Part shown: piece after piece, positions 21,442 to 31,906 of the stretch
Layout: the number at the start of each line of letters is the position of its first letter
Position numbering within the stretch: the first letter of the stretch is position 1
DNA from: Rhodospirillaceae bacterium Spongia-Bin9
GTDB lineage: Bacteria > Pseudomonadota > Alphaproteobacteria > Bin65
Assembly: GCA_900197615.1 (NCBI GenBank)
Contig: FZLR01000017.1
Location: 1-43,532, forward strand
DNA: 43,532 nucleotides
Direction of reading: 5' to 3'
Program-made: the position numbers and the translations under genes
The notes under the pieces: model-generated
Databases searched by the model: none
The model's input: only the letters and a program-made list of their open reading frames with translations
What the model was told of the DNA's origin: nothing

Positions 21442-22142
21442 CACGGACGCAATTGCAGTCGACGGCGGTTTGCGCAACATAGGCAACGGATCGGATTTTG
21501 TGACCGACAGGATTATCGGATGTCCGGGGATCGCACGGGGCAGAGCGCAGGGGCAGAGCGCAGGGGCGGACGCGACCGCCGGCCACGAAGAGACAACCGC
21601 TCGTGTCGCTCCGGCGCAGCCGCACGATGCCGCCGGACCCGGACGCAAGGGCTCGGCAGCCCTGTTTCGTCGTCTGCGCGACACCTGGGAACCTGCCGGA
21701 ATGTCGATCGATGACATTCTGCGGTCCCGCCATGACCGACATCGTGTGCGACGGTCCTGCTCCTTGACGCTTCGGCCGACCTTTCCGAAGCCGCCACGGA
21801 CTTGAACTTTTCCCCGGTCTGCCCTGCCGACGCACTGTAGCGCCGAGTCGGACGCTTCTCCGAACCGCCCCTGAGAAACGCGAAAATCCGGCCGCGATCC
21901 CCTCCGCAACCGGCTCCCGGCCTTGTTGTCCGCCCGCTGGGGGCTATATCTCGCCGAGTCGCTTGACGGCGTCCGGGATCGCAGCCTGAGGTTGCATTCG
22001 GCGGCGCACCGGGGGATCGGCGACATTCGCGGGGGCGCCCGAGGCTTCGAAGGCGCGGAAATTCCCCGTGGAAGCCCTAGCGGATAAACAACTCGCGCGC
22101 GCCGGAGCGCCTGCGCCGCGCGACATCGGGGACGGAAGCTAC
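21442..22142 (+). other. dnaG-rpoD intergenic region
   Basis: About 700 bases without a supportable gene. The plus-strand frame 21470-21805 (111 codons) and its minus-strand overlaps show no recognisable protein. The region contains a 13-bp tandem duplication (GGGGCAGAGCGCA at 21537-21549 and 21550-21562), and near its end a promoter-like pair at 21923-21950 that would give rpoD a leader of roughly 185 bases. Confidence 0.6.
21923..21950 (+). promoter_or_regulatory. Candidate rpoD promoter
   Basis: TTGTTG (21923-21928) and TATATC (21945-21950) are separated by 16 bases and resemble the alphaproteobacterial housekeeping consensus. The predicted start lies near 21957. It would let rpoD be transcribed independently of dnaG. 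Confidence 0.45.
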
Positions 22143-24446
<2,304 letters not shown>

Positions 24447-25293: not shown

Positions 25294-25339
25294 CAAGTCG
25301 CTTTGCGTGCAATCGGTCGCGCGCTTGACTGAGTGTCAA
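25281..25339 (+). promoter_or_regulatory. Two inverted repeats upstream of the HigB-like toxin
   Basis: CTTGGC-GTATT-GCCAAG (25281-25297) and TTGAC-TGAGT-GTCAA (25325-25339) are perfect inverted repeats with 5-base centres. The second ends 14 bases before the toxin start. Antitoxins of this type repress their own operon by binding such sites, so these are candidate operators. Confidence 0.5.
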
Positions 25340-25353
25340 CCAAGGTTCACAGT

Positions 25354-25656
25354 ATGCCGGCGATCGAAGTCATCGAAAGCGCTTCGTTCGGGCGTTGGCT
25401 TCGAGACCTGCGCGACAGGGGTGCGATTGCCCGGATCAACGCGCGTTTGCGTAATGTCTCGTTAGGCAATTTCGGCGATGTGAAACCGATCCAAGAGGGT
25501 CTTTTCGAAATGCGCGTGCATTCCGGTCCCGGTTATCGCCTTTATTTCCTCCGCGAGGGCGTGACGGTCGTGATGCTTTGCGGCGGCGACAAGGGCAGCC
25601 AGCGGCGCGACATTGAGCGCGCCGGCCGGTTGGCGCAGGACTGGAGACGGACATGA
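25354..25656 (+). CDS. RelE/HigB-like toxin (HI1419-type killer protein)
   Basis: The 100-residue protein matches the small RelE/ParE-fold toxins of the HI1419 type: SFGRWLRDLRDRGAIARINA near the start, then FEMRVHSGPGYRLYFLREG and VVMLCGGDKGSQRRDIERA. Toxins of this fold usually cleave mRNA at the ribosome; that activity is inferred. The ATG at 25354, after AAGG at 25342-25345, is preferred to the GTG at 25333. Its stop overlaps the antitoxin ATG by four bases, the toxin-first order of higBA. Confidence 0.88.
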   Translation: MPAIEVIESASFGRWLRDLRDRGAIARINARLRNVSLGNFGDVKPIQEGLFEMRVHSGPGYRLYFLREGVTVVMLCGGDKGSQRRDIERAGRLAQDWRRT

Positions 25657-25940
25657 CCGAAACCTTCGCGAAATGGGACGCTGCGGAACATTTGCGCACG
25701 CGGGAGGATGTGCGGCTCTATCTGGAAGCCTGCGCCGAGGAGGATCCGGGCGACGGCAGCCTGATCCGGGCGGCGCTGAACGACATAGCGCGGGCGGAAA
25801 ATATGAGCCGGCTGGCGCGCGAGGCAGGCATGAGTCGCGAAGGCCTTTACAAAGCCCTGTCGGAAGACGGCAACCCCACCTTCGCCACGGTAATGCGGAT
25901 TACGCGCGCGCTGGGGATGCAACTTCGCATCACGGCGTAG
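25653..25940 (+). CDS. HigA-like helix-turn-helix antitoxin (HI1420-type)
   Basis: The 95-residue protein carries a C-terminal helix-turn-helix: MSRLAREAGMSREGLYKALS followed by NPTFATVMRITRALGMQL, typical of the antidote partner of HI1419-type toxins. It should neutralise the upstream toxin and repress the operon. The ATGA overlap with the toxin gene (25653-25656) implies coupled translation. Confidence 0.88.
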   Translation: MTETFAKWDAAEHLRTREDVRLYLEACAEEDPGDGSLIRAALNDIARAENMSRLAREAGMSREGLYKALSEDGNPTFATVMRITRALGMQLRITA

Positions 25941-26075: not shown

Positions 26076-27125
26076 ATGATGCAGGAGCGGATCGAGGCCA
26101 AGTGGATCCGGGCGTTCGAGACGGTGTTCGGGCTGTGCGCGGTCGAGCCGGGCGATCCGGTCGCCATCCTGTCCGAGACCCAGTCGCGCGCCGTCAATGT
26201 GCAGCTGGCCGAGCTGGCCTTGAGCGCGATGGGGGCGAAGCCGTTCCATGTCGTGCTGCCGACGCCGCCGCAATCGGCGCCCGTGCCGGTGCGCTCGACC
26301 GGCGCGACCGACGTCGTGCAGCGGTTGGCGCCGGTGATCGAGGCGCTGGGCGCGTCGGCCCTGTTCGTCGATTGCACCGTCGAGGGCATGCTGCACGCGC
26401 CGGAGCTGCCGGAGATCCTCGGCAAGGGCACGCGCGGCCTGATGATCTCCAACGAGCATCCCGAAGCCCTGGAGCGGCTGGCGCCCGACGCGGACCTCGA
26501 AGGCCGGGTCAAGACCGGGATCAAAATGCTGCGCGCAGCCTCGGAGATGCATATCGCCTCAGACGGCGGGACCGACCTCACCATCGGGCTGGAGGGCGCG
26601 GCGGCGGGCGGCGGCTGGGGCTTCACCAAGCGGCCCGGCACCATGACCCACTGGCCCGGCGGCCTGTGCCTGTGCTTCCCGGCGTCCGGCAGCGTCAACG
26701 GGCGGCTGGTGCTCGACCGCGGCGACGTCAACCTGACCCTCAAACGCTATATGGAAGCGCCGGTGACGCTCACGGTCGAGGACGACTACGTCACCGACAT
26801 TGCCGGCGACAATCTCGATGCCGACCTGTTCCGCGCCTACATCGCCGCCTGGGGCGACCGCGAGGCCTATGCCGTCAGCCATGTCGGCTGGGGCATGAAC
26901 CCGGCGGCGCGCTGGGAATCGATGGCGCTCTACGACAAGGCGGATTTCAACGGCACGGAGCTGCGCGCCTTCGCCGGCAACTTCCTCTATTCGACCGGCG
27001 CGAACGAGGTCGCGGGGCGGCACACGCTCGGCCATTTCGACCTGCCGCTGCGCCACTGTACGGTGTCGCTGGACGGCCGGACCGTCGTCGACAAGGGCGT
27101 GCTGCAGGGCGACCTCGCCGGATGA
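26076..27125 (+). CDS. NicX-like (2,5-dihydroxypyridine 5,6-dioxygenase family) enzyme
   Basis: The 349-residue protein resembles NicX of nicotinate-degrading Pseudomonas, a non-haem iron ring-cleavage dioxygenase related in sequence to M29 aminopeptidases. Residues corresponding to the NicX iron ligands are present: His269 (SHVGWGMNP), His320 and Asp322 (HFDLPLRHC). THWPGG (His192), NGRLVLDRGDV and GNFLYSTGANE also match. The true substrate may differ from 2,5-dihydroxypyridine. GGGAGG at 26064-26069 supports the ATG at 26076. No maleamate amidase or formamidase gene lies beside it; an acyl-CoA dehydrogenase and ligase follow instead. Confidence 0.8.
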   Translation: MMQERIEAKWIRAFETVFGLCAVEPGDPVAILSETQSRAVNVQLAELALSAMGAKPFHVVLPTPPQSAPVPVRSTGATDVVQRLAPVIEALGASALFVDCTVEGMLHAPELPEILGKGTRGLMISNEHPEALERLAPDADLEGRVKTGIKMLRAASEMHIASDGGTDLTIGLEGAAAGGGWGFTKRPGTMTHWPGGLCLCFPASGSVNGRLVLDRGDVNLTLKRYMEAPVTLTVEDDYVTDIAGDNLDADLFRAYIAAWGDREAYAVSHVGWGMNPAARWESMALYDKADFNGTELRAFAGNFLYSTGANEVAGRHTLGHFDLPLRHCTVSLDGRTVVDKGVLQGDLAG

Positions 27126-27277
27126 ACGCACCGCCGCTGCCGGGCGTGCCATCCTGCATCGAGGCCGGCGCGGGCCTCCCGGCCGCCGGGGAAAACCCGC
27201 TGGCGGTCAACGGCGAAAGCGGCCGATTTCTACCGGATATTTCCCGGCAAGACCCGGTTCGGAATTAGGGGGGCTGC

Positions 27278-28519
27278 ATGACGCAAGCGCTCATGGACAT
27301 CCATGGGGCGGACGCGACCGCCCGCCAGAAAGACCTGATCGGCCGCATCCGCGAACTCGGCCGCGACCGGTTCCGCCCGCGCGCTGCCGAACTGGACGCA
27401 CAGAACCTGTTTCCGTTCGAGAACTATGCCGACCTGCGCGAGGCCGGCTTCTACGCGCTGACGATCCCCGAAGACCATGGCGGCATGGGCGCCGACTACC
27501 GCACCTATGCCCTGGTTTCCGCCGAACTGGGCCGCTGGTGCCCGGCGACGGCGCTGACCTTCAACATGCACGCCGCCACCTTGTTCTGGGCATCGCGCCT
27601 GGCGGACGAACTGGACATGCCGGACGATGTGCGCGCGCAGCACAACATCCGGCGCGCGGACATTTTCCGCCGCGTGGTCGAGGACGGTATGCTGTTCGCC
27701 CAGCCTTTTTCCGAACCGGACAGCGCCGCCGCCGCCGGCAAGGCGGCTTTCGGCACCTTGGCAAGGCCGGTCGAGGGCGGCTACCGGGTCGACGGCATCA
27801 AGCATTTCGCGTCGCTCTCCGGCGCGGCGAGCCATTACGGCCTGGTCTGCACGCTGGACGAGGAAGGCGTCGAGCCGATCCCGCAGAACACCATGTTCCT
27901 TGCCGTGCCGGCCGATGCCGACGGCGTGACGATCTTCGGCGAATGGGACGTCATGGGCATGCGGCCGACCGACAGCCGCTCGCTGAAGTTCGAGAATGTC
28001 TTCGTGCCCGACGACCTGACGATGCTGCCCCACGGCCTCTATTACCAGGCCGCGCTCAACTGGCCGCACATGTTCATGACCCTGACGCCGACCTATCTCG
28101 GCCTCGCCCACGCGGCCTTCCGGTTCACCGTGGACTATCTGCGCGGCGAAGTTGCCGGCGCACCGCCCGCCGGCCCGGCCCGGCACAGCCCGGCCAAACA
28201 GCTCGCGGTGGCGGAAATGCGGATCAAGCTGGAGCAGGCGACCGCCCTGTTCCGGCGCACGATCGGCGAGGCCCGGCTCCGCCCGAACAAAGAAGACCGG
28301 CTGCGCGCCTACGCCACCCAGTTCACCGTGATGGAATACGCCAACGACATTGCCCGCCTCGGCCTGCGCACCTGCGGCGGCCGGGCGATCTTCAGGAATT
28401 TCGATATCGAGCGCTGGTATCGCGACAGCCGCTGCGGTGCGCTGATGCTGCCCTGGACGGCGGAAATCTGCCTGGAGCGGCTGGGCCGGGAGAGCCTGTT
28501 CGAACGCGGCGAGCGGTAA
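27278..28519 (+). CDS. Acyl-CoA dehydrogenase family protein
   Basis: The 413-residue flavoprotein has the family layout: an N-terminal helical domain with LREAGFYALTIPEDHGGMG, a middle beta domain with WDVMGMRPTDSRSLKFENVF, and a C-terminal helical domain with CGGRAIFRNFDIERWYRDSR. Where medium-chain enzymes have the catalytic Glu in a YEGT-type motif, this protein reads LMLPWTAEI (residues 389-397), so the usual base is missing or displaced. It may desaturate an unusual acyl-CoA or do different flavin chemistry. Its TAA overlaps the next ATG by one base. Confidence 0.85.
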   Translation: MTQALMDIHGADATARQKDLIGRIRELGRDRFRPRAAELDAQNLFPFENYADLREAGFYALTIPEDHGGMGADYRTYALVSAELGRWCPATALTFNMHAATLFWASRLADELDMPDDVRAQHNIRRADIFRRVVEDGMLFAQPFSEPDSAAAAGKAAFGTLARPVEGGYRVDGIKHFASLSGAASHYGLVCTLDEEGVEPIPQNTMFLAVPADADGVTIFGEWDVMGMRPTDSRSLKFENVFVPDDLTMLPHGLYYQAALNWPHMFMTLTPTYLGLAHAAFRFTVDYLRGEVAGAPPAGPARHSPAKQLAVAEMRIKLEQATALFRRTIGEARLRPNKEDRLRAYATQFTVMEYANDIARLGLRTCGGRAIFRNFDIERWYRDSRCGALMLPWTAEICLERLGRESLFERGER

Positions 28520-30096
28520 TGACCGGTCAGCGGTCCTTCAAGCCGGCAGGGCGCAGCCAGACCGACATTTCCGGCTGGATCGCGCAGCGCGCCGGCTGGG
28601 CGCCGGGCGATACCGCCATCCGGTTCGAAGGGGCGGACATCTCCTATGCGGCGCTGGAGGACCGGATCGGCCGGACCGCCGGGGCGCTCGCCGGCGCGCT
28701 GGACGTCGCCAAGGGCGACCGGGTGGCCCATCTCGGCGTAAACGCGCCGGAGGCGATCGAACTGCTGTTCGCCTGCGCCCGCCTCGACGCGATCTTCGTG
28801 CCCCTGAACAACCGGCTCACGGTCGAAGAGCTGCTGTGGCAGTTGCAGGACTGCGGCGCCAGCCTGCTGTTCGTCGAACCGGACTATTTCGGCCACGCTG
28901 CCGAACTTGCCGCGGCGCTTCCCGAATTGCGTCTCGCAACCTATGCCGGCGACGACCCACGCTGGCCGGGCCTGGAGCCGCTTCGCGAGGCGGCGGATCC
29001 CTGCCCGCCCTCGCTGTACGCCGACCTGCGCCGCCCGGCGAAGATCGTCTACACCTCGGGCACGACCGGCCGGCCCAAGGGCGCGGTGCTGTCGCAGGAA
29101 GCGCTGTTCTACACGGCGCTGAACGGCCAGTCGGTCTTCGAGTTCCGGCGCAACGACCGTATCCTGACGGCGATCCCGCTGTTCCATGTCGGCGGCATGA
29201 ACATCCAGACCCTGCCGGGCCTGCGTGCCGGGGCGACGGTCACGCTCCACCGCCGGTTCGATCCGGCGGCGGTCCTCAAGGCGCTGACCGAGGACCGGAC
29301 GACGCTGCTCGCCGTCGTGCCGACCATGGCGCGCGCCCTGTTCGCCCTGCCGGACTTCGCCGGTTCCGACCTTTCGGGCCTGCGCTGCGTGTGCATGGGA
29401 TCGTCTTCGGTGCCGCCCGCCCTGTTCGCGCCCTGGCACGCCCGCAACATACCGGTGAACCAGGTCTACGGCCTGACCGAGAGCGGCCCGACCGCAGTGG
29501 CGCTGCCCATTGCCGACGGCTTCGCGCGCAGCGCCTCGGCCGGCAAACCAGTGCTGCATTGCGCGGCGAAGGTCGTCGCCGACGACAGCGGCAGGGAAGC
29601 GCCGCCGGGCGAAATGGGCGAAATCTGGCTGCGCGGACCCAACCTGATGACGGACTACTGGGGCGACCCCGAAGCGACCGCCGGAGCCTTTACCGAAGGC
29701 GGCTGGTTCCGGACCGGCGATCTCGGCCGGGTCGATCGGGACGGCTACTTCGTCGTCGAGGACCGGAAGACGGACATGATCGTCTCCGGCGGCGAGAATA
29801 TCTATCCGGCGGAGCTGGAGCGGATCCTGGCCGAAGCGGAGGACCTGGCCGAGTTCGCCGTCGTCGGCCGCCCGGACGAGACCTGGGGCGAAACCCCGGT
29901 CTGCATCGTCGTGCCGAAACCCGGCGTAACTGTTACCGAAGACTCGGTCCTGGCGATGTTCGACGGCCGGCTGGCGCGCTACAAGCGCCCGCGCGCCGTC
30001 GTGCTGACGGCAGGCCCGCTGCCGCGCACGCCGCTCGGCAAAGTCCGCAAGTTCGAACTGCGCGAGGCTTTGCTGGCGGGGCGGGTGGAAACGTAG
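28519..30096 (+). CDS. Acyl-CoA ligase (AMP-binding family)
   Basis: The 525-residue enzyme should activate a carboxylic acid to its CoA thioester through an acyl-adenylate. It has the ATP-binding loop YTSGTTGRPKG at residues 178-188, YGLTESGPTAV, the hinge WFRTGDLGRVDRDGYF, SGGENIYPAELE, and the catalytic Lys in PRTPLGKVRK near the C-terminus. The substrate is unknown. The start at 28519, overlapping the dehydrogenase stop, is chosen although the frame is open back to 27538. It closes the three-gene operon. Confidence 0.92.
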   Translation: MTGQRSFKPAGRSQTDISGWIAQRAGWAPGDTAIRFEGADISYAALEDRIGRTAGALAGALDVAKGDRVAHLGVNAPEAIELLFACARLDAIFVPLNNRLTVEELLWQLQDCGASLLFVEPDYFGHAAELAAALPELRLATYAGDDPRWPGLEPLREAADPCPPSLYADLRRPAKIVYTSGTTGRPKGAVLSQEALFYTALNGQSVFEFRRNDRILTAIPLFHVGGMNIQTLPGLRAGATVTLHRRFDPAAVLKALTEDRTTLLAVVPTMARALFALPDFAGSDLSGLRCVCMGSSSVPPALFAPWHARNIPVNQVYGLTESGPTAVALPIADGFARSASAGKPVLHCAAKVVADDSGREAPPGEMGEIWLRGPNLMTDYWGDPEATAGAFTEGGWFRTGDLGRVDRDGYFVVEDRKTDMIVSGGENIYPAELERILAEAEDLAEFAVVGRPDETWGETPVCIVVPKPGVTVTEDSVLAMFDGRLARYKRPRAVVLTAGPLPRTPLGKVRKFELREALLAGRVET

Positions 30097-30112: not shown

Positions 30113-30691
30113 TCAGGGAAGAAGCCCGTTTTCCTGTGCCCATTCCCGCCACTCGATTTCCTCTTCGGAGACCGGTTCAAGACGTTCGGACAAGGCGTGA
30201 TTCTCTGTAAAGATCATCAGATTATCGCAGGTCCAGCGCGCAGAAGGGGCGATCAGCCCGTCAAAACCCAGAAATGCCAGCGCTGCGCCGACACTCTGGG
30301 TCTGGGCGTAATCCCGCTCTCCGTAGCGGCCCAAATCGATGCCGAAATCCGGCAGGTCCGCTCGAACGAGACGAACGGTCCGCGCCGTCGAAACGGCGAG
30401 GCGCGTCACCTTGATCGGTCGTGGACCGGGGACCGGGGTCAATCCGGCAAGGAAGGAAGCAACTTCAGCGAGCGCTCCGTCCCGCTCCAGGCTTGTATAG
30501 AGAACATAGACGCCAGGATCGCCCCGCGGAGGCGGCGCCCACCGTCCGCCGCTGATCGAAGGCGCCGTAGGGTCAGCACCGGCACGGGTGGCGCGAAACG
30601 CTTCGCCGCCGAAACGCTCCGTGCGAAGCGCGCTCAAGCGATCGACGAGAGCCTGATCGTGGATCACGTCCCGCCGACCCGTACCGCTCAA
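30113..30691 (-). CDS. RES-domain toxin
   Basis: The 192-residue protein matches RES toxins, which deplete NAD+ by phosphorolysis or hydrolysis. Family features are FRATRAGADPTAPSISGGRW, VYVLYTSLERDGALAEVASF with the conserved Tyr and Glu, and the late CDNLMIF. The first available start is a TTG (30691-30689) overlapping the antitoxin TGA by four bases; a GTG eight codons later (30667) is the alternative. It converges on the acyl-CoA ligase gene with a 16-base gap. Confidence 0.85.
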   Translation of the reverse strand: MSGTGRRDVIHDQALVDRLSALRTERFGGEAFRATRAGADPTAPSISGGRWAPPPRGDPGVYVLYTSLERDGALAEVASFLAGLTPVPGPRPIKVTRLAVSTARTVRLVRADLPDFGIDLGRYGERDYAQTQSVGAALAFLGFDGLIAPSARWTCDNLMIFTENHALSERLEPVSEEEIEWREWAQENGLLP

Positions 30692-31050
30692 ATGTAAACC
30701 GCGTCGCGAAGCTGGTTCACCAAGCGCCGCACCTCATCGATCCGCCCATCCCGGATCAGTTCGGCCGGCGACGATCCGTCAAGGTGCTTCTGCGGCGAGA
30801 AAATCCACTGACGGGCCTCTTTCGGCTCATAGAAGTCCGACAGCTCATCCACGATGAACTCGAATTCCAGAAGGGTTTTTTCAGTCCTGGCATGGGGATA
30901 GGCACGCCCCTGGTTCCAGCGCGAAACCGTTTCCGGACGGGTGCCGAGCAGGTTCGCAACCTCGACATGCCGCATCGCCCCCTTGGTGCGGATCGATTCC
31001 AGCTTTCTGGCGACTGCGTTACTCACGGGCGCCGCCCTGGCACTTGCCAT
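30688..31050 (-). CDS. Xre-type antitoxin of the RES toxin
   Basis: The 120-residue protein has an N-terminal helix-turn-helix (RHVEVANLLGTRPETVSRWN) and a C-terminal toxin-binding region of the MbcA/ParS/Xre type (DGSSPAELIRDGRIDEVRRL). It should neutralise the RES toxin and regulate the pair. The ATG at 31050 is preferred to an in-frame GTG/ATG further out at 31101. A promoter with an overlapping inverted repeat lies at 31215-31247. Confidence 0.87.
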   Translation of the reverse strand: MASARAAPVSNAVARKLESIRTKGAMRHVEVANLLGTRPETVSRWNQGRAYPHARTEKTLLEFEFIVDELSDFYEPKEARQWIFSPQKHLDGSSPAELIRDGRIDEVRRLVNQLRDAVYI

Positions 31051-31214
31051 CGTTAGTTTTCCCGAACCGGTGCACCGTCGCTCACCGCGCCCGGCTCGCA
31101 CGAAAGGGGCCAGTTCGTTCGGGATTGCGCGCCGTGCTGTCCGGGCGGGCGCGGACGATCTTTGAGACGCTGGCCAACATTTTCGGCATAGTCACGGCAT
31201 TGCGATTAGGATTG

Positions 31215-31273: not shown

Positions 31274-31906
31274 TCACACCGTCTTGCCCTTGAAGCGGCA
31301 CAGGTCGTTGACGATGCAGGCCGGGCAGTCGGGCTTGCGCGCCTTGCAGACATAGCGGCCGTGCAGGATCAGCCAATGATGGGCGTGCTGCCGGAAGCGC
31401 GGCGGCGTCGCCTTCTCCAGCTTCTGCTCGACCGCCAGCGGCGTCTTGCCGGACGCCAGGCCGGTCCGGTTGCCGACCCGGAAGATATGGGTGTCGACCG
31501 CGATGGTCGGCTCGCCGAATGCGATGTTCAGGACGACGTTCGCCGTCTTGCGGCCGACGCCGGGCAGGGCTTCCAGCGCGGCGCGGTCCTGCGGCACCCG
31601 GCTGCCGTGCCGCTCGATCAGGATATGGCTGAGCGCGATGACATTCTTCGCCTTGGCGTTGTAGAGCCCGATGGTGCGGATATGCGCCTTCAGCCCGGCC
31701 TCGCCGAGCGCCACCATCTGCTCCGGCGTCGTCACGCGTTCGAACAGCGCTTTCGTCGCCTTGTTGACGCCGACATCGGTCGCCTGGGCGGAGAGGACGA
31801 CGGCGACCAGCAAGGTATATTCGTTGACATGGTTCAACTCGCCCTTCGGCGCCGGCCGCTGCGCCTCGAAGCGGGTATACATTTCGACGATATCGGCTTT
31901 TTTCAT
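31274..31906 (-). CDS. nth: Endonuclease III (DNA glycosylase/AP lyase)
   Basis: Nth removes oxidised pyrimidines from DNA. The 210-residue protein has the helix-hairpin-helix LPGVGRKTANVVLN with catalytic Lys120, Asp138 in VDTHIFRV, and the [4Fe-4S] cysteines 187, 194, 197 and 203, at the same positions as in E. coli Nth. It is divergent from the DUF2244 gene across 45 bases. Confidence 0.97.
   Translation of the reverse strand: MKKADIVEMYTRFEAQRPAPKGELNHVNEYTLLVAVVLSAQATDVGVNKATKALFERVTTPEQMVALGEAGLKAHIRTIGLYNAKAKNVIALSHILIERHGSRVPQDRAALEALPGVGRKTANVVLNIAFGEPTIAVDTHIFRVGNRTGLASGKTPLAVEQKLEKATPPRFRQHAHHWLILHGRYVCKARKPDCPACIVNDLCRFKGKTV

Follow-up and report, generated by a model that had tools for sequence, protein, structure and literature searches.

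A widespread, apparently uncharacterised NicX-like operon for the probable opening of ring-shaped organic acids and its three-gene derivative in a Rhodospirillaceae genome

Three plus-strand genes were analyzed in a 43,532-nucleotide stretch of Rhodospirillaceae bacterium Spongia-Bin9 (GCA_900197615.1, contig FZLR01000017.1, positions 1–43,532; hereafter, the window), which is contig C129 of a 4.06-Mb metagenome-assembled genome (MAG) of 316 contigs. They encode a NicX-like non-haem Fe(II) ring-cleavage dioxygenase (26076–27125, 349 amino acids), an acyl-CoA-dehydrogenase (ACAD)-fold flavoenzyme (27278–28519, 413 amino acids; Pfam Acyl-CoA_dh_N/M/1/2), and an AMP-dependent acyl/aryl-CoA ligase (28519–30096, 525 amino acids; AMP-binding and AMP-binding_C). 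The set is a three-gene derivative of a widespread, apparently uncharacterised four-gene bacterial operon, which probably breaks open ring-shaped organic acids. Base 28519 is common to the ACAD stop codon TAA and the ligase ATG, and the coordinates thus confirmed the arrangement described in an earlier sequence-only reading, namely three genes on a single strand with a one-base overlap between the second and third.

The gene order was searched in other genomes. Of 100 loci, 86 had enough sequence after NicX once known duplicate contigs had been taken out manually. The counts are not independent, as they include close relatives, for example several Polaromonas and the members of the window's own family. 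NicX was followed by genes for an alpha/beta hydrolase, the ACAD, and the ligase in 47 of the 86 loci, which belonged to Alpha-, Beta-, and Gammaproteobacteria. The remaining loci had the hydrolase and ACAD (9), the ligase only (9), the ACAD and ligase (6), the hydrolase only (5), the hydrolase and ligase (3), the ACAD only (2), or none of them (5). In a count over 80 loci, the ligase was present in 59. The named ligase-only loci were from Acidimicrobiia, which keep NicX and the ligase, and other Actinobacteria. One locus scored as having none (L078) carries hydrolase, ACAD, and ligase genes divergently beside NicX. NicX, ACAD, and ligase genes without an intervening hydrolase were seen at L127, L142, L108, L137, L141, and L075. 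None of the three neighbours was found at any of the 10 loci of other NicX-family homologues (34–41% identical). The clade, including two rhizobial plasmid members, was monophyletic in a FastTree tree (support of 0.80), and a public MAG labelled Alphaproteobacteria bacterium was found to carry a NicX 93% identical to that of the window. As the linkage is kept in all family genomes with a NicX orthologue and in many loci beyond, while the control loci lack it, it is not a matter of chance, and the three-gene linkage proposed from the window alone is conserved in other genomes.

The fourth gene of the operon was traced to the gap between NicX and ACAD, which measures 152 bp in the window versus 824–848 bp in same-genus relatives, where it encodes an alpha/beta hydrolase of 270–278 amino acids. 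A hydrolase lies at this position in all eight family genomes having a NicX orthologue. The window retains an in-frame stub of 48 codons (27122–27268, plus strand), the first 18 of which match the hydrolase start and the last 30 the hydrolase end. Because relatives carry the gene at that spot and the window keeps its stub, the missing hydrolase is a lineage-specific loss; the earlier view that the lack of a hydrolase is a feature of the route was not supported. The stub has lost every residue aligned with Ser92, Asp213, and His241 of the hydrolase, which we take to be the catalytic triad by what is generally known of the fold, and it has Leu at the His position. In relatives, GCCGGGGCGGG or a near copy occurs at both ends of the deletion in the same codon phase, and the gene was therefore likely lost by slippage between these short direct repeats. 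As the stub starts within an ATGA that it shares with the NicX stop codon, and 9 bp separate its end from the start of ACAD, the in-frame deletion may have kept the translational coupling from NicX into ACAD.

The 3' part of the stub was 63–73% identical to the sequences of relatives, compared with 90–94% for NicX and ACAD, and its nonsynonymous divergence (dN) between the window and relatives was 0.31–0.38 versus 0.02–0.045 for NicX and ACAD. A fresh artefact would not drift in this way or change the catalytic His position, and an assembly error is thus a very improbable source of the missing gene, even in a MAG of 316 contigs whose reads could not be checked. It is also improbable, if less so, that the operon is decaying in the window's lineage and no longer works. 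The lost hydrolase and the same-genus genome G005, which has no NicX orthologue, would fit such decay, but the ratio of nonsynonymous to synonymous divergence (dN/dS) of NicX and ACAD was 0.08–0.15, as between hydrolase-bearing relatives, and six other loci likewise have NicX, ACAD, and ligase without the hydrolase. NicX and ACAD thus remain under purifying selection, and the operon is probably still used.

The open reading frame (ORF) of the dioxygenase matched Pseudomonas putida NicX (7cn3) in a phmmer search with an E-value of 5.5e-56 and 35% identity, and its AlphaFold2 (AF2) model (predicted local distance difference test score of 89) matched 7cn3 with a Z-score of 46.0 over 342 residues. 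In the alignment to NicX, the window enzyme has the Fe ligands H269, S306, H320, and D322, as well as R297. The gene is intact, and its assignment as a NicX-type non-haem iron enzyme was upheld. Relatives in the clade are labelled 'peptidase M29' in public plasmid records, and the fold is common to the M29 aminopeptidases (AmpT/PepS, Z-score of ~21 to the AF2 model). That the protein is really an M29 aminopeptidase is nevertheless scarcely credible, given the higher Z-score and the 35% identity to NicX, and given that Arg293 and the iron ligands of NicX, among them the unusual Ser, are invariant.

The published NicX active site (PMC7910607) was the reference for counting residues in the clade. 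The Fe(II) ligands His265, Ser302, His318, and Asp320 were conserved in 89 of 89 members, as were Arg293 and His105, and His189 was conserved in 87. Glu177 of NicX hydrogen-bonds N1 and O1 of 2,5-dihydroxypyridine, and the E177A variant retains 2.7% activity (PMC7910607). This Glu was found in 0 of the 89 members, which have Gly (53), Val (28), Ser (5), Asn (2), or Ala (1) instead, the window enzyme having Gly180; it was kept in five other NicX-like sequences (L018, L087, L088, L090, and L092). Because Glu177 is missing from the whole clade, the substrate of the dioxygenase is probably other than plain 2,5-dihydroxypyridine. The genome has a second NicX-family gene (10069–11079 of L093, contig C168), which is ~34% identical to that of the window and was present in all genus genomes searched; in its product, Gln takes the place of Glu177 and Phe that of His105.

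True acyl-CoA dehydrogenases carry a catalytic Glu in a C-terminal YEGT motif. In all 51 pattern-matching homologues of the operon's ACAD, the stretch after RD[SAT]R reads CG[SA]LMLP[WL] or LGSLMLPW, with no acidic residue. The motif WPHMF, likewise without an acidic residue, was found in 53 of 59 homologues at a position equated, by alignment by eye and general knowledge, with Glu254 of isovaleryl-CoA dehydrogenase (IVD), the alternative IVD/LCAD-type catalytic Glu on helix G. The best PDB profile match was 5z8t/5gj7 (E-value of 2.6e-46, versus 4.5e-35 for short-chain acyl-CoA dehydrogenase), and the title of the 5z8t record is flavin-containing monooxygenase. Of 90 loci, 23 had a PF01613 flavin reductase, which lay within 0.9 kb of NicX in 21 (several in closely related Polaromonas and Rhodoferax); it directly follows ACAD in Thauera and is also found in the rhizobial plasmid clusters. 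Because no acidic residue stands at the YEGT position or at the presumed IVD-type position, and because relatives often have a flavin reductase beside NicX, the ACAD more likely serves as the oxygenase component of a group D (two-component) flavin monooxygenase than as a dehydrogenase, and the dehydrogenation suggested for it earlier was not supported. A group D oxygenase of the ACAD fold is known in IacA, for which IacG is annotated as the flavin reductase (PMC7225977).

The ligase belongs to the AMP-dependent CoA ligases, with scores of 269 bits for PF00501 and 60 bits for PF13193 and intact core motifs TSGTTGRPKG and PLGKVRK. It is possible that it acts on a ring-opened acid; activation before hydroxylation fits the neighbouring genes at least as well. 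The relatives' hydrolase had its top scores to PcaD-type models, yet below their cut-offs. Compared with the NicD-like protein from the nic-type cluster at L087, whose genes were named by eye, it had an identity of only 23% (31 bits). A search of the window's genome for NicD gave no good match (best 24%), and a 40% identical homologue of the hydrolase was found unlinked on contig C213. This contig also carries an ORF (13624–15855 of L094) that resembles, by eye only, a reductive-dehalogenase-type iron-sulphur protein.

Other genes near the clusters of relatives suggest a substrate among the aromatic or N-heteroaromatic acids or amines, but do not single one out. MarR-family genes accompanied 28 of 90 clusters, including those in other genera of the window's own family. 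A gene of the bifunctional salicylyl-CoA 5-hydroxylase/oxidoreductase type was found near seven clusters, and the two of these that were scored exceeded the family cut-off. A large subunit of the xanthine-dehydrogenase type (molybdopterin hydroxylase) was beside two clusters (L144, from Ramlibacter, and L159), and the Aminobacter cluster adjoins genes for a gentisate/5-aminosalicylate-type dioxygenase and a glutamine-synthetase-family ligase. A link to kynurenine was rejected, with genes for tryptophan 2,3-dioxygenase and a kynureninase-like protein beside a single locus (Pandoraea, L158). A link to glutaryl-CoA was also rejected, as the second ACAD group, seen near ~20 loci, was mixed, and most of its members were 23–32% identical to the seed.

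The window set may be a reduced form of a conserved operon for catabolism, through which an aromatic or N-heteroaromatic carboxylic acid is hydroxylated and then cleaved, with CoA activation, and we give this reading about an even chance. We infer the substrate class, the order of the steps, and the roles of the ligase and hydrolase as follows. The ligase would turn the ring acid into its CoA thioester, and the ACAD-fold enzyme, as suggested by its missing Glu and its neighbours, would hydroxylate the ring using reduced flavin from the flavin reductase. By homology, the NicX-like Fe(II) enzyme, whose His2-Asp-Ser site was assigned by alignment, would split the ring beside the new hydroxyl group. 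The hydrolase would then open a lactone, thioester, or N-acyl bond of the cleavage product; in the window's lineage, this hydrolysis would occur in trans or would not be needed. Several observations weigh against this reading. No flavin reductase or MarR gene adjoins the window operon, and the sole flavin reductase homologue found in the genome is unlinked, on contig C128. The comparison of the AF2 model of the ACAD tied oxygenases with dehydrogenases (Z-scores of ~37–42 for both). The ligase or ACAD is absent from some loci, and the full route is thus not fixed; no clade enzyme with an assayed substrate was found. More tentatively, the operon might represent an aerobic hybrid pathway that is widespread but undescribed. 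A CoA-activated ring acid would undergo two-component hydroxylation by the ACAD-fold enzyme and be cleaved by a dioxygenase of the NicX superfamily. The substrate of this dioxygenase would differ from 2,5-dihydroxypyridine and might be a ring of the anthranilate or salicylate type or its CoA ester. The collection of papers searched held no paper joining dihydroxypyridine, CoA ligase, acyl-CoA dehydrogenase, and gene cluster, and none joining dihydroxypyridine dioxygenase, acyl-CoA dehydrogenase, and flavin reductase.

An unlikely alternative order of steps, that of the sequence-only reading, is that the NicX-like enzyme opens the ring first; the ligase would next convert the ring-opened acid to its CoA thioester, for the ACAD to dehydrogenate in the manner of beta-oxidation. 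The conservation of the ligase agrees with this order, as does the presence, within 9 kb of some clusters, of genes for an acyl-CoA dehydrogenase, an enoyl-CoA hydratase, or a thiolase, although most of the second ACAD group are the weak matches described above. It is opposed by the absence of the YEGT Glu from all 51 homologues and the Pro at the IVD-type Glu position aligned by eye in WPHMF, by the flavin reductase adjoining NicX in 21 loci, and by the rhizobial clusters, which combine an ACAD and a flavin reductase without a CoA ligase. There is only a slim chance that the operon serves the ordinary nicotinate/2,5-dihydroxypyridine pathway, the deleted hydrolase being a NicD-type deformylase. 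In its favour, NicX is the closest solved structure, the clusters at L144 and L159 have the xanthine-dehydrogenase-type subunit, and the window's genome has a NicF-like gene (51% identity) elsewhere. Against this stand the clade-wide absence of a Glu that the five other NicX-like sequences keep, the low similarity of the hydrolase to the NicD-like protein, its top scores to PcaD-type models (below their cut-offs), and the lack of a good NicD match in the genome.

The operon lies between two toxin–antitoxin (TA) pairs. Upstream are a HigB-like/RelE-family toxin (25333–25656, plus strand; TIGR02683, 114 bits) and a HigA-like antitoxin (25653–25940, plus strand; TIGR02684, 111 bits), both above the cut-offs, and downstream are a RES-domain toxin (30113–30691, minus strand; PF08808, 68 bits) and an Xre/MbcA/ParS-type antitoxin (30688–31101, minus strand; PF09722, Xre_MbcA_ParS_C, 32 bits). 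In both cases, the genes are paired and belong to their family models, in agreement with the sequence-only reading. The HigBA-like genes were absent or only partly matched at same-genus loci, and the RES toxin gene had a partial match in G003 and none in the G004 and G002 stretches. As this content varies within the genus, the TA genes were ruled out as operon members, and no role was supported for them as meaningful flanks. The rpoD and nth genes (22068–24446 and 31274–31906) flank the operon in several genus members; no match to them was found in the stretches from the three other genera of the family. Rfam and PADLOC searches gave no matches.

From the sequence-only reading, there remain a real conserved linkage and its distinctness from the nicotinate operon, and the CoA route is plausible, while its hydrolase-free route, its dehydrogenating ACAD, and any role of the TA modules were not supported. 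A gene missing from a single genome can thus reflect a lineage-specific deletion and not a feature of the pathway. The large clade of proteins annotated as 'peptidase M29' or NicX-like probably acts in many environmental bacteria to cleave as yet unnamed rings, and the cluster, with its regulator in relatives, provides a ready gene set for finding the substrate. With its ligase, ACAD, and dioxygenase, the cluster would combine CoA activation, hydroxylation, and ring opening in a new way.

NicX of P. putida (7cn3), a 2,5-dihydroxypyridine 5,6-dioxygenase that cleaves its substrate to N-formylmaleamate, has the same fold as the clade, with the same iron ligands and the same Arg293, His189, and His105; it differs by its ~35% identity, by Glu177, which is replaced mostly by Gly or Val in the clade, and by its operon partners. 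NicD, NicF, and NicE are all missing from the window operon, and the NicF-like gene of the genome and a weak NicE-like match are unlinked to it. As had been proposed, the set differs from the nicotinate operon; it has no NicD orthologue and no NicF or NicE in the cluster, and the substrate-binding Glu is absent throughout the clade. The iac cluster for indole-3-acetate likewise pairs an ACAD-fold oxygenase with a flavin reductase (IacA/IacG), a functional parallel only, as no IacA sequence was compared. We know of no NicX-type ring cleavage in the iac cluster. The salicylyl-CoA 5-hydroxylase and 2-aminobenzoyl-CoA monooxygenase routes likewise activate an aromatic acid with CoA before hydroxylation, but the hydroxylase of the present operon would be of the ACAD fold and its ring cleavage NicX-like. 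Related plasmid clusters of Ensifer adhaerens (L177) and Aminobacter aminovorans (L178) run from a 'peptidase M29' gene through an ACAD, an alpha/beta hydrolase, and a glutamine-synthetase-family ligase to a flavin reductase. Their NicX-like proteins are 56–58% identical and of the same clade, and they have the ACAD, a PcaD-like hydrolase, and the flavin reductase in common with the operon, whereas the gene order is different and a glutamine-synthetase-family enzyme replaces the CoA ligase.

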